From a virus: 60,976 bases of DNA. Of this stretch, positions 6,529-60,976 are shown one piece after another. The stretch spans positions 1 to 60,976 of IMG/VR virus record IMGVR_UViG_3300045999_003786. The stretch is one strand, 5' to 3'. The translations under genes were made by a program, and so were the position numbers. The notes beneath the pieces were generated by a model that was not told the origin of the DNA, ran no database searches, and was given only the letters and a program-made list of their open reading frames with translations. Numbering within the stretch: the first letter of the stretch is position 1; each line of letters starts with the position of its first letter.

Positions 6529-7269
6529 ATGGCGACATACGTTAATGATCTGCGTCTTAAAGAGATCACCACAGGTGATGAGTCAGGCACATGGGGCACC
6601 AGCACCAACACCAACCTGTCTCTAATCGCTGATGCGTTTAGCCTTGGCACCAAGCAGATGGCCGCTGACGCCAACGAAACCTTCACGATGCCGGATGCGA
6701 CGGCGGACGGTACTCGCTCGCTGTACCTGAAGATCACCTCTGCAGTGTCCTTGACTGTAACGCGTACCGTTACACTTGGGCCGAACACGGTATCCAAGGT
6801 CTGGATCATCGAGAACGCTACGAGCGGCAGTCAGTCAATCACTATTTCGCAGGGCTCAGGTGCTACGGTGACCATTGCCACCGGCACAAAGGCGATGATA
6901 GTTAGTGATGGCGCGGGCGCGGGCGCAGCGGTCACGCTGGCAAACCCCACGGTGAGTTTGGCTTCTGGCGTTACGGGCACATTGCCAATCGCCAACGGCG
7001 GTACAGGCACTACCTCTACAACCTTTGCCAACCTGACTACCAACGTCACGGGCACACTTCCTGTCGGCAACGGCGGTACAGGCGCGACAACGCTGACTCT
7101 GAACAACGTGATTTTGGGCAACGGCACATCAGCCCCGCTGTTTGTAGCACCCGGCTCAAACGGTAACGTCCTGACCAGTAACGGCACAACGTGGCAATCA
7201 ACAACCCCAGCAGCGAGTGGAGCCTCCGTAGGCCAAGCCATCGCTTTCTCGTTAATTTTTGGTTTGTAA
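6529..7269 (+). CDS. Tail fibre protein, 246 aa
   Basis: The N-terminal part (VNDLRLKEITTGDESGTWGT) looks like a virion-anchoring segment found in marine phage tail fibres. The C-terminal half has two copies of VTGTLPxxNGGTGxT, a fibre-shaft repeat common in phage tail fibres. The protein is depleted in charged residues and rich in Thr/Gly/Ala. It lies between two other probable tail proteins, a few bases after the upstream stop with GAGG 8-10 bases before the ATG. Confidence 0.75.
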   Translation: MATYVNDLRLKEITTGDESGTWGTSTNTNLSLIADAFSLGTKQMAADANETFTMPDATADGTRSLYLKITSAVSLTVTRTVTLGPNTVSKVWIIENATSGSQSITISQGSGATVTIATGTKAMIVSDGAGAGAAVTLANPTVSLASGVTGTLPIANGGTGTTSTTFANLTTNVTGTLPVGNGGTGATTLTLNNVILGNGTSAPLFVAPGSNGNVLTSNGTTWQSTTPAASGASVGQAIAFSLIFGL

Positions 7270-7281
7270 GGAGAAACTCAA

Positions 7282-7665
7282 ATGGCAAATCCCAATATCG
7301 TTGCCGTCACCAACATTGTTGGTAACACAAGTACCAATTTAATCAGCTCAACGGCTGACCCGTTTGCGACTGCGCTGGCAAGTAATGCTGCCTCAAGTGG
7401 CAAGGTCTTTAAGATCAACTCCATTGTGGCGGCTAACGTCGATGGCTCCTCTGCCTGCGACATCACGATCAAGATATTTTCGCAGGACGATCTGGGCGGG
7501 ACGGGTACTGCAATTGCCTCGACGATCTCTGTCCCTGCGGACGCAACGCTGATTATCACTGACAAGACCACAAGCTTCTATCTTTTAGAGGACAGGTCTA
7601 TTGGTGCTACGGCCAGCGCAGCGAATGATGTCGTTGTTACAGTATCGTGGGAAGAAATTACGTAA
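7282..7665 (+). CDS. Small virion protein, 127 aa
   Basis: An acidic, Ser/Thr/Ala-rich all-beta protein with GKVFKINSIVAANVDGSSAC in the middle and a C-terminus ending VVVTVSWEEIT. The style matches single beta-sandwich proteins found beside fibre genes in phages. An AAGGAG site lies 7 bases upstream. It precedes the first RCC1 gene by 10 bases and is probably co-expressed with it. No named family was recognised. Confidence 0.58.
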   Translation: MANPNIVAVTNIVGNTSTNLISSTADPFATALASNAASSGKVFKINSIVAANVDGSSACDITIKIFSQDDLGGTGTAIASTISVPADATLIITDKTTSFYLLEDRSIGATASAANDVVVTVSWEEIT

Positions 7666-7675
7666 GGAGTGTTTC

Positions 7676-9070
7676 ATGTCTTTACGCCGACCCAATGGCT
7701 TTATCTCTGCGGGCTATGACCCGCTGGAAGTCCCTAACGCGCCTACGATTGGTACGGCGACTTATGCTTCTGCTACGTCTGTTTCAATAACCTTTACCGC
7801 GCCTGCTAACGTGGGCGGGTCTGCTATTACAGGGTACGTGGCTACTGCGAGAAAGACGTCAGACGGCACGACCATCAGCGGCACAGGCTCTTCTTCTCCG
7901 GTTACTATTTCAGGTCTGACTACAGGCGTTGCCTACACGGTGACGGTGGCGGCGGTTAACTCGTTTGGTCTTGGTGTGTCTAGCGCGGCGAGTAACTCGG
8001 TTACGCCGTTAGCGCAGCAGTTGTGGAGTTGGGGGAAAGGCAACAGTGGTCAGCTTGGCCTTGGAGATGCCCTATACAAATCAAGCCCCGTGCAAGTAGG
8101 CGCAATCACTACATGGTCTCAAATAGCTCTTGGTAACAGTGCTGCTCTTGCTGTTAAAACAGACGGTACTTTATGGAGCTGGGGTTTTAACAACAAGGGT
8201 CAACTTGGCCTTGGTGACATTGTAGCCCGTTCCAGCCCAGTTCAAGTGGGGGCACTAACTACATGGTATCAAGTAGCTGGTGGTTTTCGCCACTCAGTTG
8301 CCACTAAAACCGACGGTACTCTATGGAGTTGGGGCTATAATGTTTTTGGTCAACTTGGCCTTGGAAATGTTGTTTATCGTTCCAGCCCAGTTCAGGTAGG
8401 AGCGTTAACTACGTGGTATCAAATAGCGGGTGGGGATCAATTTACCCTCGCTACCAAAACAGATGGGACATTGTGGAGCTGGGGCCAAAACAACTTTGGT
8501 CAGTTAGGTCTTGGAGATGTTGTTTATCGCAGCAGCCCTGTACAAGTTGGCGCACTCACCACTTGGTCTCAGATTGCAAGTGGTGATTATCATAGCCTTG
8601 CCATTAAAACAGACGGTACTGTATGGAGCTTTGGGCGTAACAGCTCTGGCGATCTCGCTCTTGGTGACACTGTTAATCGCTCATCTCCTGTTCAAATAGG
8701 TGCGCTAACAACTTGGTATAAGATCGCAGGTGGAAGAACTTTTAGTCTCGCTATAAAAACTGACGGCACGGCGTGGAGTTGGGGGACCGGAGGAAGCGGA
8801 CAGCTTGGCCTTAACGATGTCGCTGAACGCTCAAGCCCAGTTCAAATAGGCGCACTTACTACATGGTCTCAGATTGCTGGTGGAAGTTCTTTTAGTCTTG
8901 CCATCAAAACCGATGGCACGATGTGGAGCTGGGGGGCTAATGGGGACGGCGCACTTGGCCTTAACAACACTGCTAATCGCTCTAGCCCAGTTCAAGTAGG
9001 GTTGCTAACTACGTGGTTAACATTACCTAAAATGCCAGCAGCAAACTCGTCTCTCGCCATCAAAGGATAA
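7676..9070 (+). CDS. Fn3 + seven-blade RCC1-repeat tail protein
   Basis: The start at 7676 has AAGGAG 6 bases upstream; earlier in-frame ATGs lie inside the previous gene. The 464-residue protein has a short anchor (residues 1-20), a fibronectin type III domain (~21-112; VPNAPTIGTATY to SNSVTP) and then seven tandem repeats of about 50 residues from residue 116. Each repeat runs LWSWGxNxxGQLGLGD, SSPVQVGALTTW, then ATKTDGT. Seven RCC1-type units normally close into one beta-propeller, so this looks like a complete propeller. It is the first of three such genes (9106, 12010) in the tail block. A receptor-binding or glycan-binding role is inferred, not demonstrated. Confidence 0.8.
   Translation: MSLRRPNGFISAGYDPLEVPNAPTIGTATYASATSVSITFTAPANVGGSAITGYVATARKTSDGTTISGTGSSSPVTISGLTTGVAYTVTVAAVNSFGLGVSSAASNSVTPLAQQLWSWGKGNSGQLGLGDALYKSSPVQVGAITTWSQIALGNSAALAVKTDGTLWSWGFNNKGQLGLGDIVARSSPVQVGALTTWYQVAGGFRHSVATKTDGTLWSWGYNVFGQLGLGNVVYRSSPVQVGALTTWYQIAGGDQFTLATKTDGTLWSWGQNNFGQLGLGDVVYRSSPVQVGALTTWSQIASGDYHSLAIKTDGTVWSFGRNSSGDLALGDTVNRSSPVQIGALTTWYKIAGGRTFSLAIKTDGTAWSWGTGGSGQLGLNDVAERSSPVQIGALTTWSQIAGGSSFSLAIKTDGTMWSWGANGDGALGLNNTANRSSPVQVGLLTTWLTLPKMPAANSSLAIKG
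8021..9070 (+). repeat. Seven ~150-bp tandem blade repeats, gene 1
   Basis: Seven imperfect direct repeats of about 150 bases encode the RCC1-type blades. Blocks encoding SSPVQVGALTTW and KTDGTLWSWG are nearly invariant, so the repeats can recombine within this gene and with those at 9187 and 12172. Confidence 0.85.
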
Positions 9071-9105
9071 CCATGAACATCAACCAATCAGGCTTGAGGT
9101 GCTAA

Positions 9106-10233
9106 ATGCCGAGTTACAGCGGAGTGTGGACGTTACAAGCTCAGATGCAGGCCGTGGCCGCTGGTACGTGGACTGGGTTGCCGCAGTTGTTTGCGTGGGG
9201 AAACAACGGCAGTGGTAGATTAGGTCTTAACGACACTGCTAATCGTTCAAGCCCAGTACAAGTAGCAGGTCAAAATTGGTCTCTAATAGCTGGTGGTCAA
9301 GGCTTTACTATTGCCACTAAAACTGACGGGACACTGTGGTCTTGGGGGTATAACAACAATGGTATGCTGGGGCAAAACGATACTGTTAGCCGTTCCAGCC
9401 CAGTACAAGTTGGGGCATTGACTACTTGGTATCAAGTGGCCGCTGGCACAGCTTTTAATCTTGCCACTAAAGCTGACGGAACGCTATGGAGCTGGGGGCG
9501 TAACCAATATGGACAGCTTGGTCTTAACGATACTGCTAACCGCTCTAGCCCTGTACAAGTCGGTGCTTTGGCTACTTGGTCTCAGGTTGCGGCTGGGGCG
9601 CTACACAGCCTTGCCGTTAAAACCGACGGAACCCTGTGGAGTTGGGGCTATAATGTTTTTGGTCAACTTGGCCTTGGAGACATAACCTATCGCTCTAGCC
9701 CTGTACAAGTAGGAGCGTTAACTACTTGGTCTCAAGTAGCTGCTGGCACTAACCATAGTCTGTCCATTAAAACTGACGGTACGTTGTGGTCTTGGGGGCG
9801 TAACGACTCCGGTCAACTCGGCCTTGGTGATATCGTCCACCGCTCCAGTCCTGTTCAAGTCGGAGCTTTAACAACTTGGTCTAGGATTTCAGGTGGACAG
9901 CAGTTTAGCCTTGCCGCTAAAACCGACGGCACGTTATGGAGTTGGGGACAAAACAACGCTGGTCAACTTGGTCTTGGTGACGTTGTCCTTCGTTCCAGCC
10001 CTGTGCAGGTTGGGGGGTTAACTACATGGTCTCAAGTTGCTGCTGCGCCATCACACAGCCTTGCCATCAAAACAGACGGGACACTGTGGAGCTGGGGGTA
10101 TAACGGCAGTGGTCAACTTGGCCTTGGAAATACTGCTGGCCGCTCTAGCCCTGTTCAAGTCGGGTTGTTAACGACTTGGTCAACACTACCAAAAATACCT
10201 TTGGCGCAAAATTCACTAGTCATTGGTTCATAA
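9106..10233 (+). CDS. Seven-blade RCC1-repeat tail protein 2
   Basis: A 375-residue paralogue of the gene at 7676 without the Fn3 domain. It begins with a 25-residue segment containing GVWTLQAQMQAVAAGTW, a virion-anchor-like motif seen at the start of phage tail proteins. Seven ~50-residue RCC1-type repeats follow from residue 28 (LFAWGNNGSGRLGLND onward). The first blade lacks part of the usual VQVGALTTW block. The ATG overlaps the stop of a 10-codon reading frame in the short gap after the first RCC1 gene. Exactly seven blades again suggests one closed propeller. Receptor binding is inferred. Confidence 0.8.
   Translation: MPSYSGVWTLQAQMQAVAAGTWTGLPQLFAWGNNGSGRLGLNDTANRSSPVQVAGQNWSLIAGGQGFTIATKTDGTLWSWGYNNNGMLGQNDTVSRSSPVQVGALTTWYQVAAGTAFNLATKADGTLWSWGRNQYGQLGLNDTANRSSPVQVGALATWSQVAAGALHSLAVKTDGTLWSWGYNVFGQLGLGDITYRSSPVQVGALTTWSQVAAGTNHSLSIKTDGTLWSWGRNDSGQLGLGDIVHRSSPVQVGALTTWSRISGGQQFSLAAKTDGTLWSWGQNNAGQLGLGDVVLRSSPVQVGGLTTWSQVAAAPSHSLAIKTDGTLWSWGYNGSGQLGLGNTAGRSSPVQVGLLTTWSTLPKIPLAQNSLVIGS
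9187..10230 (+). repeat. Seven ~150-bp tandem blade repeats, gene 2
   Basis: The second block of seven repeats is homologous to those at 8021 and 12172, with the same ~150-base period. Variation concentrates in the residues after WSWG and in the loop after TTWxQVA. Confidence 0.85.
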
Positions 10234-10243
10234 CAGGATAACA

Positions 10244-12013
10244 ATGAACAAACACCTACACTTCCTCTCAGGCGTACCTCGATCAGGCTCCACTGTGCTG
10301 GCGGCTATCCTGAATCAGAACCCAATGACGCACGTGTCAACAACCTCTGCTCTGGGCGCAGCTCTGGACGGTCTGGCTACGGCTTGGCATCGTGACAACC
10401 TTTTAGTTAACAACGATCCTGATCGCAGCAAACTGGCTCACACCATGCGCGGAGTGATTGACGCTTTCTACGAGGACGTTCCCAAGCCCGTAATCATCGA
10501 CAAGGCACGTAACTGGCCGATTCCCGTGATTATGCAGGCGATGGGTCAGGTGCTGGGTCACAAGCCCAAGATCATTGCCACAGTGCGTTCTATCCCTGAC
10601 TGCATGGCGTCCTTTGTCCGGGTAGCCAAGCCTGAGAACCTCGATGACTTCCTCGTTAACAGCTCACTCACGAATCACCTGAAAGGCTCCTACCAAACCC
10701 TACAACAAGGCTACGCCTACGATGCTGAGTCGTTCCTGTTTGTAGAGTACGAAGACCTGCTGGCCGACCCCAAAGCTCAGTTACAACGAATTCACGCATT
10801 CCTTGACCTGCCCGACTTTGACTACGACTACGCCAACATCGACGGCTCTACGGTCAAAGAGGACGACGAGAACCTGCACGGTTACTCGGGCCTGCACGAC
10901 ATCAAGCCTGTCCTTGAGAAGCAGCACCAACAAAGCCCCAAGGACGTACTCAAGCACCACTACGCGCAGTTCTGTCAGCCTGAGTTCTGGTTGGAAAGAC
11001 CTCGCACTGTCCCCGATATCCACGACCTTGATCTGCAACTGGTGGCCTCAAGAATGGGCGACTTTGCAGAGGGCTGGAGACTGTGCCAGAAGCTGGAGAA
11101 GGACGAGCCTGATAACCACCGAGCCGCCTACAACCGGGGCTGGTATCTTTTACGTCAGGGCCAGATTCAGAAGGGCTATCAACTGCTGGACCGTGGCCGC
11201 ATTGTGAACGTCTTTGGCAACGCCAAGCCTAACGTCCCAACTGTTGCGTGGGATGGTAAGAGCAAGGGCATTGTGATGCTGCACCTTGAAGGCGGTCTGG
11301 GAGATCAGATACACCAAGTCAGATACGCCAAACTGATTGCTGATCGTGGCTGTAAAGTCATTGTTTCTTGTACTGGCGCACTGGCCTCTCTATTCGTGGA
11401 CGTTGAGGGTGTGGCGGCTGTTATCCAGCACGAAGCGTCTTTCGGTATCTACCATGACTTCTACGTGCAGGGAATGTCCGCTGTTGTGCCTCTGGGCCTT
11501 GAACTAGACGATCTTAGTGGTAAGCCGTACATCACGAAGCCTAAGACCATCAAAGCCCGCAGGAAGCGCATAGGGCTACGCTGGCAGGGTCAGTCAGCCT
11601 TTGAGAACGACCACAACAAGAAGTTTCCGTATGAGCTGCTGTTCGATGCAGTCAAGGATGCAGATGCTGAGTTCATCTCCCTGCAACGTGACGAGGGTGC
11701 TGATTCGTGTCCGTCATGGGTTAAGCAGGTTCCTTTAGATTCATGGGAAGATACCCGTGCTGCTGCGGCATCGTGTGATCTGGTGATCTCTTCCTGTACT
11801 TCAGTGAGTCATTTGTCTGCGGCGATGGGCGTAGAGACTTGGGTTGTGACGCCGGTGATGCCGTACTTTCTATATGCCCTAGAAGGCGATACCTGTCCTT
11901 ATTACGATACAATGCGCCTGATGCGTCAGGAAGTATTCGGTGACTGGACTGCCAGCTTTGAGAAGATCAAAGAGCGTCTTGGTGAGAAACAAGCCTTGAG
12001 GAGAGTCAAGTGA
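10244..12013 (+). CDS. Sulfotransferase-glycosyltransferase (GT9-like) fusion
   Basis: The ATG at 10244 has AGGATAAC just upstream, while earlier in-frame ATGs overlap the preceding gene. The 589-residue protein has three parts. Residues 1-250 form a sulfotransferase-like domain: the PAPS 5'-phosphate loop SGVPRSGSTVL (9-19) and a 3'-phosphate motif RSIPDCMASF (115-125). Residues ~262-320 look like TPR helices. Residues ~340-589 resemble a GT9/heptosyltransferase-type glycosyltransferase, with EGGLGDQIHQVRYA (349-362) and SCTSVSHLSAAMGV near 535-550. It lies between RCC1 genes 2 and 3 and overlaps the third by 4 bases (GTGA). It may add sulfate and sugar to tail propellers or to the host surface. 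Confidence 0.78.
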   Translation: MNKHLHFLSGVPRSGSTVLAAILNQNPMTHVSTTSALGAALDGLATAWHRDNLLVNNDPDRSKLAHTMRGVIDAFYEDVPKPVIIDKARNWPIPVIMQAMGQVLGHKPKIIATVRSIPDCMASFVRVAKPENLDDFLVNSSLTNHLKGSYQTLQQGYAYDAESFLFVEYEDLLADPKAQLQRIHAFLDLPDFDYDYANIDGSTVKEDDENLHGYSGLHDIKPVLEKQHQQSPKDVLKHHYAQFCQPEFWLERPRTVPDIHDLDLQLVASRMGDFAEGWRLCQKLEKDEPDNHRAAYNRGWYLLRQGQIQKGYQLLDRGRIVNVFGNAKPNVPTVAWDGKSKGIVMLHLEGGLGDQIHQVRYAKLIADRGCKVIVSCTGALASLFVDVEGVAAVIQHEASFGIYHDFYVQGMSAVVPLGLELDDLSGKPYITKPKTIKARRKRIGLRWQGQSAFENDHNKKFPYELLFDAVKDADAEFISLQRDEGADSCPSWVKQVPLDSWEDTRAAAASCDLVISSCTSVSHLSAAMGVETWVVTPVMPYFLYALEGDTCPYYDTMRLMRQEVFGDWTASFEKIKERLGEKQALRRVK

Positions 12014-13221
12014 GTCAAAAGTATCCCGGCGGCATAATCAGTAAAACGGCTCCTGTCACTGTCGGCCCTGTCGCTGGTGAGGGCGGCTCTGCGCCGGGTA
12101 TCTGGACACTGACTCAGGCACTGGAATTGAATAAGCAGAACTTGTGGCCGAAGCCTGTGTTGCCTAAAGAGTTGTATGCGTGGGGGACTGGCTCCTATGG
12201 TCAGCTTGGCCTTAACGACGTAACCAGCCGTTCTAGTCCAGTACAAATAGGCTCCTTAACTACGTGGTCTAAAATAGCTGGCGGTCAAAACTCTAAAGCT
12301 GCCATTAAAACAGACGGCACTTTGTGGAGCTGGGGGTACAATGCCTTGGGTCAACTTGGTCTCAACGATGCCGCTAGTCGCTCAAGCCCCGTACAAATTG
12401 GCGCATTAACAACTTGGTATCAAGTAGCTCCCGGCGGATACCAAGTAGCGGCAACCAAAACAGACGGCACACTGTGGGGCTGGGGGCGTAACAACGACGG
12501 TCAGTTAGGTCTGGGAGACACTGTTAACCGTTCCAGCCCCGTGCAAGTAGGGGCATTAACAACTTGGTATCAAGTAGCTGGTGGACAGTCCTTCACCCTT
12601 GCTATTAAAACTGACGGTACGATGTGGGGTTGGGGTGATAATGGCGGTGGTATGCTTGGCCTTAACGACACTATTAACAGATCAAGCCCAGTACAAATAG
12701 GCTCCTTAACTACTTGGTATCAAATGGCTGCTGGAAACAGCCACACTATCGCTACTAAAACAGACGGAACGCTTTGGAGTTGGGGGAGGAACGGCTTTGG
12801 TCAGCTTGGCCTCAACGACACAGTTTACCGATCAAGCCCAGTTCAAGTAGGCGCGTTAACAACATGGTCTCAAATAGCTGGCTGTAGCAACTTTACCGTT
12901 GCCACTAAAACCGACGGCACCCTGTGGAGCTGGGGGAATAACATTGACGGGCAACTTGGCCTCAACGACACAGTCATCCGTTCTAGTCCGGTTCAAGTGG
13001 GGGCGTTAACTACTTGGTATCAAGTAGCTGGTGGTCAATCTTTTACCATTGCCACTAAAACCGACGGCACGATGTGGAGCTGGGGTTCTGGTTCTAGCGG
13101 TAGGCTTGGCCTCAACGACACAGCGAACCGCTCAAGCCCAGTACAAATAGGAGCGTTGACAACGTGGTCGAAGCTACCAAAAATGCCAATGAGCACTTCA
13201 TCCTTAGCTCTTAAATCTTAA
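12010..13221 (+). CDS. Seven-blade RCC1-repeat tail protein 3
   Basis: The start is a GTG in a GTGA overlap with the stop of the sulfotransferase fusion, with GAGGAGAG 7-12 bases upstream. The 403-residue protein has a ~54-residue N-terminal segment containing PGIWTLTQALELNKQNLWP, similar in position to the anchor of the second RCC1 protein. Seven ~50-residue RCC1-type repeats follow from residue 55. Two blades read LWGWG or MWGWG in place of LWSWG. Translational coupling to the modifying enzyme suggests the two act together. A tail-tip propeller role is inferred. Confidence 0.8.
   Translation: MSQKYPGGIISKTAPVTVGPVAGEGGSAPGIWTLTQALELNKQNLWPKPVLPKELYAWGTGSYGQLGLNDVTSRSSPVQIGSLTTWSKIAGGQNSKAAIKTDGTLWSWGYNALGQLGLNDAASRSSPVQIGALTTWYQVAPGGYQVAATKTDGTLWGWGRNNDGQLGLGDTVNRSSPVQVGALTTWYQVAGGQSFTLAIKTDGTMWGWGDNGGGMLGLNDTINRSSPVQIGSLTTWYQMAAGNSHTIATKTDGTLWSWGRNGFGQLGLNDTVYRSSPVQVGALTTWSQIAGCSNFTVATKTDGTLWSWGNNIDGQLGLNDTVIRSSPVQVGALTTWYQVAGGQSFTIATKTDGTMWSWGSGSSGRLGLNDTANRSSPVQIGALTTWSKLPKMPMSTSSLALKS
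12172..13218 (+). repeat. Seven ~150-bp tandem blade repeats, gene 3
   Basis: The third block of seven direct repeats with the same period and core codons as those at 8021 and 9187, bringing the total to 21 related units within about 5.2 kb. Confidence 0.85.
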
Positions 13222-13235
13222 TCAGGAGATACACA

Positions 13236-13634
13236 ATGTTCTTTGTAAAAATAGTAAACGACGAAGTAACCCAGTGCTGGGACACACAACCTCCCAAAGG
13301 CGAGTCAGGCTGGAAGTCAGCCATCGAAGTACGCCCTGCTGTGACACCTAACCGTCAGCAGTACACCGGCCACAGCTTTGATATCACCAAAGACCCTGTT
13401 GAGATCGTCTGGGGTGTTCAAGACATCACTGCTGAAGACCGTAAAGGCGGACTGCGTTCACAGGCTGCTGCTGCGTTTCAGCAGGTTGTACAGGAAGAGA
13501 TGCGTAAAGAGGTCGATGAGTTCCCCACTACTCAGTACAACCCTGCTACTGTTGACGCTGCCCGTATTGCTTTCGAGACCAAGGTCACTGCAATCAACGC
13601 AGCCACTACGCACGAAGAGCTTGATGCGCTGTGA
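13236..13634 (+). CDS. Tail-fibre-assembly-like protein, 132 aa
   Basis: The protein begins FFVKIVNDEVTQCWDTQP and has a helical C-terminal half (QVVQEEMRKEVDEF). The combination of a short beta start and a coiled C-terminus immediately after a receptor-type gene resembles tail-fibre assembly chaperones, but no specific family was recognised. AGGAGA lies 8 bases upstream of the ATG. Its stop overlaps the next start (GTGA), linking it to the glycosyltransferase. Confidence 0.5.
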   Translation: MFFVKIVNDEVTQCWDTQPPKGESGWKSAIEVRPAVTPNRQQYTGHSFDITKDPVEIVWGVQDITAEDRKGGLRSQAAAAFQQVVQEEMRKEVDEFPTTQYNPATVDAARIAFETKVTAINAATTHEELDAL

Positions 13635-14326
13635 GACTGAACTACTCGTATGACATGACACCATCCAAAGCCTACATCATCCGTGTTGTGGGTAACGCTG
13701 CCTCTGAAGAGAAAGCCAAGCGGTGTGCAGTGTCATGCGAGAAAGTGGGCCAGCCCTACGAGTTCTGGGACGCTTATGATGGTTTAGCAGACGAGATCAA
13801 ACCTCCTGCTCACCACAATGCCATCATGGACTGCATTAAGGTCACAGATCACTACCTGACCCGTGGCGAAGTAGCGTGTGCGTTGTCCCACATAAGCCTG
13901 TGGGCAAAGTGCGTACTTGAAGACAAGCCTCTGGTGATTCTGGAGCATGACTCGTTGATGTTGCAGCCCTACACGCAACACGCTGTCTTTAACTCGATCT
14001 GCTACTTAGGCTCGCACGAGCAGGTCAAACTTAACTGGCAGGTGTCTGCTACGCCTCCCCACGCGACTGAAGGTGAGAACTACCACTTCCTGTGCCGTGC
14101 TCATGCGTATGCAATCGACCCGGCTGTTGCCAAGAACCTGTTGTCCTACGTTATCAAGATGGGTATTTGTACATCCTTAGATATGCTGGTTCGTGCTGAC
14201 CTGTTCCCCATTCACCAGATGGGTGTCTACGCCTATAATGTGTTTGAGAGCAGAGAAGAAACAACCATCAAAGGTCGAGCCTTAGAGGGCAGAGCCACTA
14301 AACGAAACGACGGGCTGCTGGTATGA
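13631..14326 (+). CDS. Glycosyltransferase family 25-like
   Basis: The 231-residue product has the GT25 (LPS biosynthesis) pattern: an N-terminal strand AYIIRVVGN, then TRGEVACALSHISLWAKCV (77-95) and PLVILEHDSLM (100-110), where EHD replaces the usual EDD-like metal motif. The start is either GTG in a GTGA overlap or ATG 21 bases later; the first gives coupling. It follows the putative fibre chaperone and overlaps the APS-kinase-like gene by 4 bases. Likely substrates are host LPS or phage tail proteins. The His in place of Asp in the acidic motif may alter metal use. Confidence 0.72.
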   Translation: MRLNYSYDMTPSKAYIIRVVGNAASEEKAKRCAVSCEKVGQPYEFWDAYDGLADEIKPPAHHNAIMDCIKVTDHYLTRGEVACALSHISLWAKCVLEDKPLVILEHDSLMLQPYTQHAVFNSICYLGSHEQVKLNWQVSATPPHATEGENYHFLCRAHAYAIDPAVAKNLLSYVIKMGICTSLDMLVRADLFPIHQMGVYAYNVFESREETTIKGRALEGRATKRNDGLLV

Positions 14327-14739
14327 AGATTCTCGTGATGGGCCTGCCGGGTAGCGGTAAGACCACACTAGCAAGGGCTGTAGCCCAAAAGCTACAGTGC
14401 GCTCACTTTAACGCCGATGAAGTACGGGCCACGTTGAGCAAAGACTTAGGGTTCAGCATCGCAGACAGGATAGAGCAGGCTAGGCGCATGGGGGCCTTGT
14501 GCGATCTGAGTACGAGTCAGCACGTGATTGCCGACTTTGTATGCCCTACGCCTGAGACGAGATTGGCGTTCAATGCTGACTTTGTAGTGTGGGTAGATCG
14601 CATCAAAGCAGGCAGGTTTGAAGATACCAATAGGCTCTTTGTCCCGCCTGAGCAGTGCGACGTGCGAGTGACGGCAGAGTGCGATTACCCTACGTACTAC
14701 GTAGATTTAATTACCAAGCTAGTTGAGGACTCTCAATGA
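14323..14739 (+). CDS. APS-kinase-like P-loop kinase (CysC-like)
   Basis: A 138-residue P-loop enzyme with Walker A GLPGSGKTT (7-15), FNADEVRATLSKDLGFS (residues ~29-45), DRIEQARRMG and the strand VIADFVCPTPETR. This order matches adenylylsulfate (APS) kinases, which make PAPS, the donor used by sulfotransferases. It is shorter than typical CysC (~180-200 residues) and its C-terminal substrate lid is reduced, so another small-molecule kinase is possible. It overlaps GT25 (ATGA) and lies about 2.3 kb after a sulfotransferase gene, which supports the PAPS role. Confidence 0.68.
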   Translation: MKILVMGLPGSGKTTLARAVAQKLQCAHFNADEVRATLSKDLGFSIADRIEQARRMGALCDLSTSQHVIADFVCPTPETRLAFNADFVVWVDRIKAGRFEDTNRLFVPPEQCDVRVTAECDYPTYYVDLITKLVEDSQ

Positions 14740-14981
14740 ACATAGATGAGATAGCCCTACGCCAAATCATCCGCGAGGAAATGAAGTCTGTCCTCAAGGA
14801 AGTCGGCCTCCACGACGATGACGCGGGTAATGATGTACGCGATCTACGTTCTTTGATTACCGACTGGCGCGGCATGAAGAAAGTCGTCTGGCAGACTGTT
14901 GCCCGTGCAGGTACTGTTTTTGTTCTTGGTCTGCTGATGCTCGGTGCGTGGAGCAGATTTGGTGGAGGTAACGGGGAATGA
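14736..14981 (+). CDS. Small membrane protein, 81 aa
   Basis: Residues 1-50 are charged and helical (IDEIALRQIIREEMKSVLKE). One membrane segment follows near residues 52-73 (TVARAGTVFVLGLLMLGAW). ATGA overlaps on both sides tie it to the kinase and the next membrane gene. It starts the lysis-like block, so a holin accessory or spanin-like role is possible, but no family was recognised. Confidence 0.6.
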   Translation: MNIDEIALRQIIREEMKSVLKEVGLHDDDAGNDVRDLRSLITDWRGMKKVVWQTVARAGTVFVLGLLMLGAWSRFGGGNGE

Positions 14982-15340
14982 GTGACGAAACTCCAGTTAG
15001 ATACGAGACAGCGAAAGAAGTCGCAGGCAAAGCCATAGGCCAGTACGGTCTGATGTACATCACGGCTATCGTGCTGATCGGCGTTGGCTCCAGCTATTTT
15101 CTGTCTGAGGGCGCTATCACTGCTGTGATGACAATGATCGGCGGTGCTCTCGTCGCATTGATTAACATGATGAACGGCATTGCGGGTACTCAAGAAAAGC
15201 CTGACCGTCCTGAGTTTGAAGTCATTCAGCACCTGATTGCTAAACTCGCTGAGAAAGAACCTCCGATGCGCGTTGATGTCGAAGACGGTAAAGTCACTGT
15301 CCGAAAGGGCGACGACGTTACGAGCATGAAAAATGATTGA
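14978..15340 (+). CDS. Membrane protein, holin-like, 120 aa
   Basis: Two predicted membrane segments lie near residues 23-45 (GLMYITAIVLIGVGSSYFL) and 47-66 (AITAVMTMIGGALVALI), with a charged C-terminal tail rich in Lys and Asp. Small two-span proteins just before a lysozyme are often holins or antiholins. It overlaps the next gene by 8 bases. Assignment is from topology and position only. Confidence 0.58.
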   Translation: MSDETPVRYETAKEVAGKAIGQYGLMYITAIVLIGVGSSYFLSEGAITAVMTMIGGALVALINMMNGIAGTQEKPDRPEFEVIQHLIAKLAEKEPPMRVDVEDGKVTVRKGDDVTSMKND

Positions 15341-15809
15341 TCCCGTCTCAGCCTTAGCCATAGCCACGTCTGCGTTTAATCTGCTAAAAAAGGGAATATC
15401 CGCAGGTCGAGAATTGGAAGACATGGCAGGCCAGCTGGGAACGTGGTTCTGCGCAGTCAGTGATGTCAAGTCCGCAGAGGAAGAAGCCAAAGACCCGCCG
15501 CTATTCAGAAAGCTGATCTCCAGCGGCAGCGTTGAACAGCAAGCCCTGCAGGCACTCTTGGCTCGCAAGAAGATTGAGCAGCAGGAGAAAGAGCTGCGCG
15601 AGTTGATTGTCTGGCGATGGGGCGTTGAGGAGTACACAGCCATGATGCGGGATCGAACCAAAATCAGAGACACGCGCACACGGGCGGTCCAGAACCAGCG
15701 GCGCAAGATGAGAAAGCTCATTGCTAACGTCCTAACAATTACTGTGATTCTTGGCCTCGTTGGGGCAATAGTCGCTTTCGGTATCGGCATTTTAATGAAT
15801 CTGGGGTAA
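15333..15809 (+). CDS. Coiled-coil protein with C-terminal membrane anchor
   Basis: This 158-residue protein has a hydrophobic N-terminus, a long charged helical region (LLARKKIEQQEKELRELI and onward) and a C-terminal membrane segment (VLTITVILGLVGAIVAFGIG). Similar proteins occur beside lysis genes in marine podo- and myoviruses. A role in lysis control or virion assembly is possible. It lies between two membrane genes in the same operon. Confidence 0.55.
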   Translation: MIDPVSALAIATSAFNLLKKGISAGRELEDMAGQLGTWFCAVSDVKSAEEEAKDPPLFRKLISSGSVEQQALQALLARKKIEQQEKELRELIVWRWGVEEYTAMMRDRTKIRDTRTRAVQNQRRKMRKLIANVLTITVILGLVGAIVAFGIGILMNLG

Positions 15810-15814
15810 CAGCT

Positions 15815-16297
15815 ATGTTGAGTTTGATATCAAGTTTGATGGGATTTGCAAGCGCGGGAGTGCCTCGTTTGCTTGACATGTGGCAACAAACGAAAGACCA
15901 GAAGCACGAATTAGCCCTGATGGCGATGCAGCGTGAGCGCGAGGTTGCACTAGCTCGTGAGGGCTTTGTTGCACAAGCTAGAGTGGAAGAGATTCGGACT
16001 GATCAGATTGCAATGCAGACACAAGCGCAAGAGAAACTTGCAATCTGGAAACACGACTCTAAATTAGCAGAAGGGGGGTCAACTTGGGTGATCAACCTTA
16101 GAGCGTCAGTACGACCAGTCGTGACCTATATCTTCGTGGGCCTGCTGGTTGTCGTTGACATTGCCGGTATCTGGTATGCGTATAGCACTGGTGTGGCCTT
16201 TGCTGAAGCGATGTCGCTAGTGTTCTCATCTGAGGAAATGGCCATACTCAGTGCAATCATCTCCTTCCACTTTGGGGGGCGTGCCTTCTCAAAATGA
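15815..16297 (+). CDS. GTA-type three-TM holin
   Basis: The 160-residue product matches the '3TM holin for gene-transfer-agent release' pattern. It has a short hydrophobic start, a charged helix with Gln/Glu repeats (~25-85), the signature VINLRASVRPVVTYIFVGLL, two more membrane spans and an ending FHFGGRAFSK. It would permeabilise the inner membrane to release lysozyme. It overlaps the lysozyme gene by 4 bases (ATGA), a classic holin-lysin arrangement. Confidence 0.82.
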   Translation: MLSLISSLMGFASAGVPRLLDMWQQTKDQKHELALMAMQREREVALAREGFVAQARVEEIRTDQIAMQTQAQEKLAIWKHDSKLAEGGSTWVINLRASVRPVVTYIFVGLLVVVDIAGIWYAYSTGVAFAEAMSLVFSSEEMAILSAIISFHFGGRAFSK

Positions 16298-16779
16298 GCA
16301 TATCTGAGGCTGGCATCCAGCTAATCAAGTCTTTCGAGGGCTGTCATAGAAGCCCTTACCGGTGCCCTGCTGCGCTTTGGACGATAGGGTATGGTCATGT
16401 ACTGTACCCAGACCAAGCAAGGCTCAAAACAGACGAGAGAGCCTCTTATGCACTTAAACCAGAACACAATAGGCTTTGGGATGCTGACGAGATTGATTCG
16501 CTTCTTGAAAAAGATCTATTACGGCATTCTGTCGGAGTACGAAGATTATGTCCTGCTTCTGTTGATCGTCAGTGCAATCATGATGCGCTGGTGAGTTTCA
16601 GCTACAACTGTGGACTTGGGTCATTGCAGTCTTCCACCCTAAGAATGAAGTACAATCGTGAGGACTACGATGGCGCAGCAGATGAGTTCCTGAAGTGGAC
16701 TAAAGCTGGCGGCAAGGTACTCAATGGCTTAGTCAGGCGCAGGGAAGCTGAACGAGCGATGTTCTTGGCCGGGGGCTAA
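16294..16779 (+). CDS. Endolysin, GH24 lysozyme (muramidase)
   Basis: The 161-residue enzyme has the GH24 pattern: LIKSFEG with the catalytic Glu near residue 15, then YRCPAALWTIGYGH, and later SFSYNCGLGSLQSSTLR and a C-terminal RREAERAMFL. It would cleave peptidoglycan at the end of infection. No signal-anchor is obvious, so it should depend on the upstream holin. The ATGA overlap with the holin supports coupled expression. Confidence 0.9.
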   Translation: MSISEAGIQLIKSFEGCHRSPYRCPAALWTIGYGHVLYPDQARLKTDERASYALKPEHNRLWDADEIDSLLEKDLLRHSVGVRRLCPASVDRQCNHDALVSFSYNCGLGSLQSSTLRMKYNREDYDGAADEFLKWTKAGGKVLNGLVRRREAERAMFLAGG

Positions 16780-17463
16780 ATGTATCTTATAAGCAACATT
16801 CCGTACTTTAAGTGCTGGGTACGAAAAGAATTTACCAACGGCCACCAGAACTACCACGGCGAGTACGTCCATGCGCTGGCTGTTGCGGTTACTACGATGC
16901 CGGATAGGTGCTTGTCGTTTCAACTGATCTTCACAGGGTGCGAGGCCGACGACGGTAGCCAGCCGAATGTGCATGGCGGTGCGATGTGGGCAAGAATGCC
17001 GATTACTGCGCTGGTTGGTGACATACCGCTGGAAGAGTGGCCCGAGCGCATGGAAACGCACTTTGTGCAGCCGTGGGACTGCAGCTCCTACCACCACAGC
17101 ATCATCTCCATCGACCGGGCTAAACCGTCCCAGTGGCTGTGCAAGATCGACAATCAGTTCTTCAAGGGCCGCTATCTGTTTACCGTTGACTACGCCGAGA
17201 GCGACGTGGCCGAAGACCCTGCGCAGCACAAGCAGACCCACGTCCTCATCCTGACCGATGCTGGCAAGTGGACCGGAAATATTGTAGCTTTACCAAACAA
17301 CCGGGTGCGTGTCACGAGCCCCGCGTACTGGGTTACGGGTGAAGGCGCACCGGACTTTAAACCCAGCCAGTGGATACACTGTGCAGAGCAGGATGATTCG
17401 TATCTGGACCCTAATGTAACCTTCAACAACTTGTATGCGGAGAACGAAAATGATGAAAGCTAA
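16780..17463 (+). CDS. Conserved phage protein, 227 aa
   Basis: An apparently cytosolic beta-rich protein with blocks YHGEYVHALAVAVTTMPDR and VHGGAMWARMPITALVGDIP, and an acidic C-terminus. I recognise it as a type found between lysis and tail-hub genes of uncultured marine phages, but with no known function. It starts right after the lysozyme stop and overlaps the next gene by 14 bases. A virion role is plausible from position. Confidence 0.55.
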   Translation: MYLISNIPYFKCWVRKEFTNGHQNYHGEYVHALAVAVTTMPDRCLSFQLIFTGCEADDGSQPNVHGGAMWARMPITALVGDIPLEEWPERMETHFVQPWDCSSYHHSIISIDRAKPSQWLCKIDNQFFKGRYLFTVDYAESDVAEDPAQHKQTHVLILTDAGKWTGNIVALPNNRVRVTSPAYWVTGEGAPDFKPSQWIHCAEQDDSYLDPNVTFNNLYAENENDES

Positions 17464-57594: not shown

Positions 57595-58179
57595 ATGGCA
57601 AACGTAGACAAAGCTTTTGGCCTGCGCCCGCTTGGTAACTTGTCCGCCACTGGAGCTCAGAAGCAGTTCGCTTATGAGATCAACGACAACCAGTCTGGCG
57701 CAATTTATCAAGGGGATTTGGTCACACTCTCTAGCGGTTATGTCGTAAAGTACGATTCCACGCTGCACACTGTAGCGTTGGGCGTATTCAACGGCTGTAA
57801 CTACATTGATCCTACAAGCGGCAAGCCCACTTGGAAGAACTACTACCCGGGTTCGGTTAACATCACTACCGGCGTTATCAGCGCAGAAGTGGTAGACGAT
57901 CCCAGTCAGTTGTTCCTGATTCAGGCGGATGAAGACGTTGTGCAGGCAGATATCGGCTTGAACGCTAACATCGCCTACACCGCCGGCAGCACTACTACTG
58001 GCCTGTCTGCGACCGAGCTTGACTCATCTACCATTGCTAACACAGCAGGCTTGGTGTTGAAGGTTGTGGGCTTCTATAACAGTCCCAGCAACGAACGTGC
58101 TACAAATCACGTTGATGTTGTGGTTAAAATTAACGCACACATGTATGGCAGCGCTGGCGTTGCTAATACTGCGCCATAA
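57595..58179 (+). CDS. Capsid decoration/head-stabilising-type protein, 194 aa
   Basis: A beta-rich protein beginning NVDKAFGLRPLGNLSATGAQ and containing VNITTGVISAEVVDDPSQLF and LVLKVVGFYNSPSNERATN. Proteins with this start sit immediately before coat genes in many marine phages and probably decorate or stabilise the capsid. AAGGAAC lies about 9 bases upstream of the ATG. Function from family position. Confidence 0.66.
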   Translation: MANVDKAFGLRPLGNLSATGAQKQFAYEINDNQSGAIYQGDLVTLSSGYVVKYDSTLHTVALGVFNGCNYIDPTSGKPTWKNYYPGSVNITTGVISAEVVDDPSQLFLIQADEDVVQADIGLNANIAYTAGSTTTGLSATELDSSTIANTAGLVLKVVGFYNSPSNERATNHVDVVVKINAHMYGSAGVANTAP

Positions 58180-58192
58180 TAGGAGCTAACTC

Positions 58193-59101
58193 ATGGCTAT
58201 TTCTCGTTCCCAATTAGTCGCCGAACTTGAGCCGGGTCTTAACGCTCTGTTCGGTATGGAGTACGACAACTACGAAAATGAGCACACGGAGATTTATTCA
58301 ATCGAATCTTCTGACCGCGCATTTGAAGAAGAAGTTATGCTCTCCGGTTTTGGCGAAGCACCCGTGAAGTCTGAAGGCGCAGGTGTCGAGTACGACAACG
58401 CGCAAGAAGTCTACACCGCTCGCTACACCCACGAAACCATTGCTCTGGCGTTCAGCCTGACCGAAGAAGCCGTAGAAGACAACCTCTACGACCGTCTGTC
58501 TGTGCGTTACACCAAGGCTCTGGCTCGTTCAATGGCGCAGACCAAGCAGATCAAAGCTGCTGCCATTCTGAACGGCGCATTCACCACCTCAATCGGTGGC
58601 GACGGCGTTGCGCTTTGCGCAACAGATCACCCTACGCTGAGTGGTCCAAATCTGCGTAACGAGCTGTCTGTATCTGCAGACCTCTCTGAAACCTCACTGG
58701 AGCAGGCGCTGATCGACATCGCTGCCTTCACTGATGAGCGCGGTCTGAAGATCGCGATTCAGGGCCTGAAGCTGATCATCCCGAAAGAGCTGCAGTTCAC
58801 TGCTGACCGTATCATGAAGTCAACCCTGCGCGTAGGCACAGCGGATAACGACATTAACGCTATCCGCAACATGGGCATGGTTCCGCAGGGCTACACTGTT
58901 AACCACTTCCTCGTCGATCCAGATGCGTTCTTCATCAAGACCGACGCGCCTAACGGCATGAAGATGTTCAACCGTGCTGCGATCAAAACCGGCTTTGAAG
59001 GCGACTTTGATACGGGCAACGTTCGTTATAAAGCAAGAGAGCGATATTCGTTCGGCTTCTCTGATCCTCGCGGAATATTCGGTTCACCCGGCACTCCGTA
59101 A
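58193..59101 (+). CDS. Major capsid protein, copy 2
   Basis: Same length (302 residues) and five residue changes relative to copy 1 (for example GDGVALCATDHPTLSG here versus GDGKPLCATDHPALSG). About 49 of roughly 940 bases differ, mostly silent and clustered after base 360 of the gene. It follows scaffold and pre-coat genes as expected. AGGAG precedes the start and the UUCG terminator follows. If the window is a circular assembly, this and copy 1 are two alleles of one gene. Confidence 0.85.
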   Translation: MAISRSQLVAELEPGLNALFGMEYDNYENEHTEIYSIESSDRAFEEEVMLSGFGEAPVKSEGAGVEYDNAQEVYTARYTHETIALAFSLTEEAVEDNLYDRLSVRYTKALARSMAQTKQIKAAAILNGAFTTSIGGDGVALCATDHPTLSGPNLRNELSVSADLSETSLEQALIDIAAFTDERGLKIAIQGLKLIIPKELQFTADRIMKSTLRVGTADNDINAIRNMGMVPQGYTVNHFLVDPDAFFIKTDAPNGMKMFNRAAIKTGFEGDFDTGNVRYKARERYSFGFSDPRGIFGSPGTP

Positions 59102-59110
59102 GCAAAATCA

Positions 59111-59124
59111 ACGACTTACGTCGT
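59111..59124 (+). other. Short hairpin before terminator, copy 2 only
   Basis: ACGAC-TTAC-GTCGT forms a 5-bp stem just upstream of the intrinsic terminator. The left copy has unrelated bases here. It may modulate termination. Confidence 0.35.
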
Positions 59125-59129
59125 TACTA

Positions 59130-59152
59130 AGGGCCCTTCGGGGCCCTTTTTT
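59130..59152 (+). terminator. Intrinsic terminator after coat gene, copy 2
   Basis: The stem GGGCCC/GGGCCC around TTCG (59131-59146), extended by an A-T pair (59130 with 59147), is followed by six Ts. It has the same structure as the copy 1 terminator. Confidence 0.92.
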
Positions 59153-59181
59153 ATTGTAATGGTAAAATAGCGATACAAGGC

Positions 59182-59210
59182 TTGACAACACTCTTTAGCG
59201 GGATTACTAT
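59182..59210 (+). promoter_or_regulatory. Promoter of homing endonuclease gene
   Basis: TTGACA (59182-59187) and TACTAT (59205-59210) have exactly 17-base spacing, about 30 bases before the endonuclease start, which has AAGGAG at -10. The endonuclease is thus a self-contained expression unit. Confidence 0.75.
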
Positions 59211-59238
59211 CTAAAATACCCAGTAAGGAGAAGCTAAA

Positions 59239-60198
59239 ATGGCTGTTATCTACCGCATTACAAACATGATTAACAACAAGTACTACATCGGCAGCACAGA
59301 GTCTTTTGCTCGCCGCGAGTGGCAGCACAAGAACGATTTAAAAAGAGGGGCGCATAAGAACCCGCACCTTCAAGCTTCTTGGAATAAATACGGCGCGGAC
59401 GCGTTTGTTTTTGAAATACTATCGGAGGTTCCAACAGGTGAGTCTCAACTTGTTTGGGAGGACAGGTACTTGGCCGTGCATGTTGGACTACCTGAGTGTT
59501 ATAACATTAACACCGGGGCTGAGGCTCCACGGCTAGGGATACCCATGTCTGAGGTTAGCAAACAAAAGATGAGCCTTAGCCGTACAGGCAAACACGCCGG
59601 CACCGAGCACTACCGCTACGGTCAGGCGGTAAGCCCCGATGTCCGACAAAAGATAGGGGACACACAGCGAGGGGTGGCTAAACCGGAACGAACCGAAGAA
59701 CACCGCCGAAGTCTTTCTATCGCCAATGCGGGCAACCAGAACTGGTTGGGCAAAACGCATACTGAAGAGACTAAAAATAAGCTTCGCAGAGCTGTTTTCG
59801 CAAGGCTCCCCGATGGGCAGACGCGTATTTTCGCAGGGTTATCCGTTATGCGGGACGAGCTGGGGGTTTCTATCGCTACCACCATTAGAGCCTGCGGATC
59901 AGGAAAGCCGGTAAAATGTGGTGTGTTGGCAGGATGGGTGTTGTCTTATGCAGACGCGGCGCCTAACCAAGGTCCTAGCATATCTGAGGAGTACGCAAGC
60001 TACCCCCGTACCCGACAGGCTGCTAAAGCTGCGGGAAGCAAAGAGTATTTTACGGGGATGCCTTGTGTCCGAGGGCATATATCCCCCCGGAAAGTCAAAG
60101 GCAGTTGCACAGCATGCATGAGGGAGGATTGGAAAACAGAAAACGCAAGGCGGGCATTAAAGGGCGAGACCATTGACACCTTCCCCCAAAAAGCGTAA
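59239..60198 (+). CDS. GIY-YIG homing endonuclease
   Basis: The 319-residue protein begins MAVIYRITNMINNKYYIGST, the GIY-YIG active-site signature, with conserved Arg/Glu (SFARREWQHKND; LVWEDRYL). The middle holds NUMOD3-like DNA-binding units (SEVSKQKMSLSRTGKH; SPDVRQKIGDTQRG; TEETKNKLRRAV). The C-terminus has a Cys/His finger (CVRGHISPRKVKGSCTACM). It is free-standing in the gap between coat and decoration-like genes, absent from the left copy, so it behaves as a mobile element at that site. It lacks the self-splicing intron that some such genes have. Confidence 0.9.
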   Translation: MAVIYRITNMINNKYYIGSTESFARREWQHKNDLKRGAHKNPHLQASWNKYGADAFVFEILSEVPTGESQLVWEDRYLAVHVGLPECYNINTGAEAPRLGIPMSEVSKQKMSLSRTGKHAGTEHYRYGQAVSPDVRQKIGDTQRGVAKPERTEEHRRSLSIANAGNQNWLGKTHTEETKNKLRRAVFARLPDGQTRIFAGLSVMRDELGVSIATTIRACGSGKPVKCGVLAGWVLSYADAAPNQGPSISEEYASYPRTRQAAKAAGSKEYFTGMPCVRGHISPRKVKGSCTACMREDWKTENARRALKGETIDTFPQKA

Positions 60199-60293
60199 AA
60201 AGTACGTAACCCCGGAACATTTTACGCGCTGCAGACCGACCGGGCGGACGACATGCAGACTGAAGCGCAACACTCGCATGTGAGGATTTCATT

Positions 60294-60976
60294 ATGTCGG
60301 CTACTCATTACTCCGGTCCGTTACTCTATTCTGGTGCAAACACAAGCGCGCTCTTCGCTGGTATGACTGACATGCCCATTGGCATCGATCTGTCAGTATT
60401 TTCACTGCTTGATGACTTTGTCGGTGTTGCGATAGACACAACAAACAGCTGGACTGTGGTCAAGGACTCCAGTGCTACCGTTGCTATCGTCGCTGACACG
60501 GTCGGCGGTGAAGTAGCACTGACCTCTGCTGCCACAACTGACAACGATGGTGCTTCTATTCAGGGCAACGAAATTTTCGCAGTTGCTGCAGACAAAAACA
60601 TCTACTTTTCAACGCGCCTGAAGTGCAACGACGCTGACCAGACTGACATTTGCGCTGGTTTGACGTTGAACTTTGCAACTAACCCAGAAGCAATGTTGAC
60701 TGCAACTGACCGCATTGTGTTTCAAGTGGACGACGGTAACGCATCAATCCTGTGCAAAACCGAGAAGAACGGCACGGAGACCAGTACCGACTCTGGCGTT
60801 GACTTGGCTGATGACACCTACGCTGTGCTGTCGTTTAACGTCGCCAGCACTGGCAGCGTGACGTTTTTTGTTAACGGGCGAAAAGTTGCGCAGCATACCA
60901 CCAACATCCCTGATGACGAAAACTTAGCGTTGGCAGCAATGAGCTTGTCTGGTTCAGCCAGCGGCACCCGCGCAAC
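60294..60976 (+). CDS. Decoration-like protein, truncated copy
   Basis: This is the 5' 683 bases (227 codons plus two bases) of the gene seen whole at 1163-1882, cut by the window edge. About 18 bases differ from that copy. In this copy the promoter found at 1042 is missing, so expression would rely on the endonuclease transcript or on read-through of the coat terminator. Confidence 0.82.
   Translation, partial: MSATHYSGPLLYSGANTSALFAGMTDMPIGIDLSVFSLLDDFVGVAIDTTNSWTVVKDSSATVAIVADTVGGEVALTSAATTDNDGASIQGNEIFAVAADKNIYFSTRLKCNDADQTDICAGLTLNFATNPEAMLTATDRIVFQVDDGNASILCKTEKNGTETSTDSGVDLADDTYAVLSFNVASTGSVTFFVNGRKVAQHTTNIPDDENLALAAMSLSGSASGTRA

Follow-up and report, generated by a model that had tools for sequence, protein, structure and literature searches.

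Phage-encoded glycosylation of virion proteins is known from mycobacteriophages, whose enzymes decorate the virion; to our knowledge, neither sulfation nor an adenosine 5'-phosphosulfate (APS) kinase nor an RCC1 protein takes part there, and the transferases differ from those described here. The subject of this analysis is a cassette in the tail-fibre region of a virus contig of 60,976 nucleotides (nt) (IMG/VR record IMGVR_UViG_3300045999_003786, analysed over its whole length and termed the window), in which genes for a sulfotransferase-glycosyltransferase fusion, a GT25-type glycosyltransferase (GT) and a short APS-kinase-like protein stand among three genes for RCC1 propellers. A genome note suggests capsid glycosylation on the basis of two putative glycosyltransferases (PMC11256854), and in one paper the function of phage sulfotransferases was called unclear (PMC10580990). 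No described system with such a combination of enzymes and RCC1 proteins was found in the literature searched, in line with the initial annotation of the window, which a model had made from the sequence.

Single parts of the cassette resemble known enzymes. FlmG of Caulobacter is a soluble flagellin O-glycosyltransferase with a TPR module and a GT-B domain (PMC7591256). As in the phage fusion, the TPR module is combined with a C-terminal GT-B domain; in FlmG the TPR module recognises the surface-filament protein that its GT domain modifies with pseudaminic acid in the cytoplasm, whereas the GT domain of the fusion is GT9-like, is joined to a sulfotransferase and presumably acts on RCC1 proteins. 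TibC heptosylates serine residues in autotransporters (PMC4358343). TibC and AAH, which belong to an ADP-heptose-using family and modify many serines of a repeat-containing adhesin, share the GT9-like fold (Z 15) with the fusion, but the latter has a sulfotransferase and a TPR region in place of the N-terminal barrel of TibC, and its presumed substrate is a propeller rather than an autotransporter passenger. The best structural matches of the sulfotransferase half are TPST1 and TPST2, with which it shares the fold that binds 3'-phosphoadenosine 5'-phosphosulfate (PAPS); the identity is about 15%, the catalytic Glu is not apparent, and the phage protein is fused to a GT. Both TPST and TibC are cited for resemblance to the modelled fold, and membership in their families is not claimed. 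A similar arrangement of genes is that of the isolated cyanophage S-SRM01 (NC_070963), where RCC1, TPR-GT and sulfotransferase genes lie together beside a long tail fibre gene. In contrast to the window, its sulfotransferase and GT are separate genes and no short kinase was detected in the flank; none of its RCC1, TPR and sulfotransferase genes is mentioned in the paper on the genome (PMC8557907).

Linkage of the fusion enzyme and RCC1 propellers

For the fusion, IMG/VR yielded at least 311 relatives. Linkage was counted in the best 80 of these, which are not independent events: an RCC1 gene is present in all 80 loci and lies within 200 bp in 79. The structural genes of the relatives drop to 25-50% identity or become unrecognisable, and the fusion is 73-98% identical; its retention on divergent backbones indicates that fusion and propellers travel together. 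The link occurs in at least four unrelated settings, namely the podovirus-like lineage of the window, the cyanomyoviruses (e.g. S-SRM01), where each half is a gene of its own, located between RCC1 genes by the long tail fibre, the marine virus AG-345-E08, which has three RCC1 genes, a GT, a sulfotransferase and a GT25 enzyme 38% identical to that of the window, and a prophage-like contig (L097) of a betaproteobacterial metagenome-assembled genome (MAG), which carries the fusion-RCC1 pair. GTs of the S-SRM01 type were found in 47 IMG/VR loci, 44 of them scorable; RCC1 is present in 44/44 (within 200 bp in 41), and most also have a sulfotransferase. The cassette is thus widespread, in many phages of lakes and the sea. 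Purifying selection is strong, with ratios of nonsynonymous to synonymous substitution (dN/dS) of 0.04-0.06 for the fusion, 0.02-0.08 for GT25 and 0.12-0.15 for the kinase, which together with the 80/80 linkage places the cassette beyond chance. The genes, whose families were matched by profile or fold as the initial annotation had named them, are as follows:

7676-9070, plus strand: RCC1a, an fn3 domain and seven RCC1 blades (Pfam fn3 E 1e-10, RCC1 E 2e-79); the ATG start was picked within a listed TTG open reading frame (ORF), 7601-9070
9106-10233, plus strand: RCC1b, seven-bladed propeller (Pfam) with a GVWTLQAQMQAVAAGTW motif at the N terminus
10244-12013, plus strand: fusion gene, 589 residues, sulfotransferase-TPR-GT9 (Pfam and structure model)
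10244-11017, plus strand: fusion residues 1-258, sulfotransferase domain with PRSGST loop, R115/S123 and DKxRxW (Pfam, TPST1/2 fold match)
11018-11218, plus strand: fusion residues 259-325, TPR-like linker (weak TPR_16, E 0.005; helical in the model)
11267-11998, plus strand: fusion residues 342-585, GT9-type (GT-B) glycosyltransferase domain (fold matches; GGLGDQIHQ and SCTSVSHL motifs)
12010-13221, plus strand: RCC1c, seven-bladed propeller (Pfam RCC1 E 2e-78); its start codon overlaps the fusion stop
13236-13634, plus strand: o20, 132 residues, no Pfam or PHROG match; its place behind the last propeller or fusion gene is conserved, and it occurs in 67/80 fusion loci
13631-14326, plus strand: GT25-type glycosyltransferase, 231 residues (PF01755 E 2.8e-15; GT25 structures E 1.5e-4)
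14323-14739, plus strand: short APS-kinase-like P-loop kinase without lid segment, 138 residues (PF01583, APS_kinase, E 5.6e-13)

Stop and start codons overlap by 4 bp between fusion and RCC1c (12010-12013), o20 and GT25 (13631-13634), GT25 and kinase (14323-14326), and kinase and the next gene (14736-14739). RCC1b and the fusion are separated by a 10-bp gap, so that fusion/RCC1c is the sole direct enzyme-propeller overlap, and the translational coupling of enzymes to RCC1 genes initially proposed holds for this pair. Conservation as a block, named in the initial annotation as a check, holds for fusion and RCC1 but not for GT25, which occurs in just 22/80 fusion loci; other loci have genes for GT32, a methyltransferase or ADP-heptose synthesis. 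GT25 was therefore rejected as a core member and is regarded as optional. Its Pfam profile scores 57.2 bits (cut-off 24) and aligns over residues 31-113 of the 231 only. Further genes occur at the same place in other viruses: S-SRM01 has a 2-oxoglutarate-Fe(II) (2OG-Fe(II)) oxygenase, a GT2-methyltransferase and a sugar dehydratase, and AG-345-E08 (L089:6468-7620, 8921-16901) has many more small ORFs among the RCC1 genes, some oxygenase-like by eye.

The placement in the tail-fibre cluster suggests a chemical modification of the tail by the phage itself. We consider it probable, without being certain, that the cassette serves virion decoration, in which RCC1 adhesins would be heptosylated and sulfated with PAPS provided by a minimal phage APS kinase. 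The data show the genes with their families, folds, conservation and co-occurrence; the activities, donors, acceptors and benefit that we infer would fit together as follows. The RCC1 propellers would be tail adhesins, and the TPR-like linker might hold the fusion near its RCC1 substrate, both being made together. The GT9 domain would attach a sugar, for which heptose donated by ADP-heptose is the likeliest candidate, probably to serines recurring in each blade (RSSP/YSSP), and the sulfotransferase domain would add sulfate to this sugar or to the propeller, using PAPS which the short kinase would form from host APS. GT25, GT32 and methyltransferase genes may encode lineage-specific tailoring enzymes, and the benefit could lie in adsorption range or in escape from receptor or phage-binding defences. 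The fuller version, a phage pathway of protein glyco-sulfation with its own PAPS and, in many relatives, its own ADP-heptose, in which the fusion arrays sulfated heptose on virion propeller adhesins, is put forward tentatively. If this is virion modification at all, it is a new form of it in phages. Host-range prediction from sequence usually treats phage tail proteins as unmodified polypeptides, an assumption that would no longer hold if a cassette common in aquatic phages furnished adhesins with sugar and sulfate; such a cassette would also explain what phage sulfotransferases, mostly catalogued as auxiliary metabolic genes, are for, and would connect the sulfur and heptose genes of phages with the assembly of virions rather than host metabolism. 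We do not favour a role in host metabolism, given the location of the genes in a tail operon.

Fusion enzyme, putative sugar donor and candidate acceptors

The N-terminal half matches Pfam Sulfotransfer_3 over residues 7-192 (E 3.9e-16; 60.4 bits, cut-off 27). An AlphaFold model of the fusion from 39 diverse sequences (predicted local distance difference test, pLDDT, 88.5), which superseded an earlier, too weak model from 32 close homologues (pLDDT 65), was searched against the PDB. Its N-terminal half fits TPST1/2 over about 240 residues (Z 18.5-19.2; 5wri_A Z 19.2, 241 residues, root-mean-square deviation 3.6), and residues ~342-587 fit WaaC (Z 16.1), WaaF (15.5), the GT9 enzyme 3tov (15.0) and TibC (15.0). 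Although residues 320-589 have no match among Pfam profiles, the label 'GT9-like' given initially to this half was right. Some phage proteins of BFVD that it matches carry the name GT9. By profile, the N-terminal half is assigned to the PAPS-dependent sulfotransferase family, and the modelled C-terminal half is of the GT9-type fold. PRSGST, R115, S123, DKxRxW, GGLGDQIHQ and SCTSVSHL vary little or not at all across 32 fusion sequences; the first three, corresponding to the 5'-phosphosulfate loop and the Arg-Ser pair for the 3'-phosphate, are strictly invariant. D354 is invariant in the fusions as well and is equated by motif only with the catalytic Asp of the GxGD motif. By eye, the fusion has no apparent signal peptide or membrane stretch, and its C terminus has no clustered Cys comparable to the four-Cys iron finger of TibC/AAH.

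Genes for ADP-heptose synthesis (RfaE1, RfaE2, HldD) follow the kinase directly in many relatives (RfaE2, TIGR02199 E 2e-50; RfaE1, E 2e-31, short; HldD, E 2e-57), each match being below the NCBI full-length cut-off. A search with HldD yielded 26 newly fetched loci with sulfotransferase or GT domains, 23 of which have kinase and RCC1 too; among the gene rows are RCC1 (three copies)-GT-sulfotransferase-HldD in L297 and fibre-sulfotransferase-RfaE2-RfaE1-HldD in AG-345-O18. Together with the GT9 fold, these hld genes point to ADP-heptose as the donor. Many phages (L291-L319) carry a different operon, HldD-RfaE2-RfaE1, but have neither sulfotransferase nor RCC1.

The same evidence bears on another explanation, by which the enzymes would add heptose and sulfate to host lipopolysaccharide (LPS) or capsule, blocking superinfection or changing receptors, and would have no more than the operon in common with the tail genes. 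WaaC and WaaF act on LPS, GT25 is described by Pfam as an LPS biosynthesis family, and the ADP-heptose supplied by hld genes is an LPS precursor. We nevertheless regard a host-surface target as unlikely: the linkage with RCC1 and fibre genes in the tail region extends across unrelated phages, modification of proteins in the cytosol fits a fusion without apparent signal peptide or membrane stretch at least equally well, and stand-alone sulfotransferase-kinase pairs too lie right behind fibre-like genes. Where the initial annotation had left the choice between tail propellers and host LPS, virion proteins are judged the likelier target because the genes are embedded in a tail operon.

For the favoured virion decoration, the propellers are the candidate acceptors. 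Each of the three RCC1 genes encodes seven repeats (PF00415 E 2e-78 to 1e-84), and the proteins match PHROG 4219 among other families. RCC1 proteins of PHROG 4219 were detected in virions of phage W70 by mass spectrometry (PMC11370258). Ser-Ser-Pro is found repeatedly in the blades of the window propellers. Among 1075 blades linked to the fusion, 95-99% have Ser-Ser ahead of Pro, compared with 62-65% of the 80 blades of enzyme-free loci, a suggestive difference only, as the control set is small and distant and the comparison ignores relatedness. Beside this, RCC1b and RCC1c (9106-9200, 12010-12170) share an N-terminal GxWTLxxxxxxxxxxxW motif, also seen in 76 of the 281 RCC1 proteins of related loci, which is possibly a tail-attachment segment. 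A role of phage RCC1 proteins in DNA ordering, guessed for phAPEC6 (PMC7247149), is supported by nothing in the data.

The blades also bear on whether the adhesin is instead sulfated on tyrosine or another residue, with the GT acting separately on Ser/Thr and the two halves fused only through their common substrate. The N-terminal half finds its best fold matches in tyrosylprotein sulfotransferases (Z 19), half of the blades linked to the fusion have Tyr ahead of Ser-Ser-Pro, and cyanophages encode sulfotransferase and GT separately. Yet this Tyr alternates with Arg, and the blades of the window have Arg nearly throughout. Moreover, TPSTs have their catalytic Glu in the stretch after the 5'-phosphosulfate-binding (PSB) loop, and no Glu is seen by eye in the corresponding stretch past the PRSGST loop of the phage sulfotransferases. 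We consider this explanation very improbable.

Short kinase and probable supply of the sulfate donor

The best family matches of the short kinase are all adenylylsulfate kinases; it also matches phrog_10255 ('kinase'). Walker A, DxxR and DLGFS..DR.E.ARR motifs are kept, and G7, G12, K13, D32, R35, R49, P75 and R80 are invariant across 24 sequences, one of which is a bona fide APS kinase. Of 76 newly fetched loci of kinase relatives, 50 have at least 4 kb upstream; a sulfotransferase or GT domain was found in 38 of the 50, and 19 of these 38 have no RCC1. In 23 loci the kinase gene abuts a stand-alone sulfotransferase gene, mostly with a 4-bp overlap, with fibre-like genes upstream of the pair and holin-like and endolysin genes downstream. 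Other loci have a small ORF beside the kinase that is weakly sulfotransferase-like (L190 E 0.019, L148 E 0.024, L221 E 9e-5), and L098 has a true APS kinase (E 4e-59) two genes behind a fusion homologue; the organism names of L098 (a Woesearchaeota MAG) and L096 are not trusted, as these are metagenome bins. The kinase thus tracks the sulfotransferase, not the propeller. These pairs, including those without RCC1, favour PAPS supply and are the best evidence for the role initially proposed; judged from its motifs and neighbours, the kinase probably makes the sulfate donor. A small nucleotidyltransferase (CTP_transf_like) occurs in several phages and one archaeal MAG contig, either as a fusion with the APS-kinase-like protein or beside it (L002:5992-6732, L003:5992-6738, L004:4001-4732, L051:7108-7464, L219:8465-8854, L098:8163-9083); that it is a minimal APS-forming enzyme is speculation (PF01747, ATP-sulfurylase, E 0.005 only).

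Several points weigh against virion decoration as proposed. Acceptor and donor are guesses from neighbouring genes. Ser-Ser-Pro may be structural, since it is also common in RCC1 proteins without enzymes, and such RCC1 genes occur in distant phages, so that propellers generally do not need the enzymes; this occurrence had been named beforehand as a sign against the idea, but RCC1 is missing from none of the 80 fusion loci. The window has no hld genes, and the hld link is not exclusive, as about 30 other phages have an hld operon and no sulfotransferase or GT match. The kinase scores 48.4 bits with TIGR00455 (E 8e-13), below the NCBIfam equivalog cut-off of 138.7 bits, lacks the RDxKGxY..KA lid segment and has Gln in place of the Asn after DRxE, and a related kinase of Casjensviridae is located away from tail genes. 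Those relatives, with MazG-like, NADAR and methyltransferase neighbours, raise the idea of a DNA-modification kinase, not favoured here because the closest relatives of the window kinase pair with sulfotransferases. Its short length, absent lid and low score, and the nucleotidyltransferase fused or adjacent in some relatives, would also suit a nucleotide- or sugar-type P-loop kinase present for another reason, which is compatible with virion decoration by the other enzymes; the uniform adenylylsulfate kinase matches, the retained motifs and the repeated overlap with stand-alone sulfotransferase genes make this unlikely. The initial interpretation is partly supported: right in outline, and revised as to the sugar donor, the optional GT25 and the evidence for the kinase.

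Genome setting

The gene order, all on the plus strand, is fibre-like gene, o15, RCC1a, RCC1b, fusion, RCC1c, o20, GT25, kinase, followed by small genes and an endolysin gene (16294). The first two are:

6529-7269, plus strand: tail-fibre-like gene, 246 residues (PHROG 31104, E 7e-12, a family of unknown function)
7282-7665, plus strand: o15, conserved partner of 127 residues; its DSL-LC04 homologue carries the annotation 'putative lectin'

The tail-fibre-like gene, for which position and composition suggest a fibre role, is a conserved upstream partner ahead of the cassette in most loci. By portal protein, phage DSL-LC04 is nearest (70%), then 023Pt_psg01 and the Pelagibacter phages HTVC027P and HTVC023P (46-47%). 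The cassette is exchangeable, as in DSL-LC04, with its close backbone, this slot is occupied by a lectin together with a 2OG-Fe(II) oxygenase.

The contig ends repeat with variation (1-1845 and 58163-60976), which indicates a circular genome of about 58 kb. The repeat is the capsid region as a variant allele, 93-97% identical, with an extra GIY-YIG homing endonuclease gene of about 1 kb (59239-60198) downstream of the capsid gene. GIY-YIG-like endonuclease ORFs also recur in relatives between the fusion and the next RCC1 gene (L009:5474-6181, L017:11800-12498, L056:11776-12330, L073:5533-6159, L082:8657-9421), as if this were a homing target.

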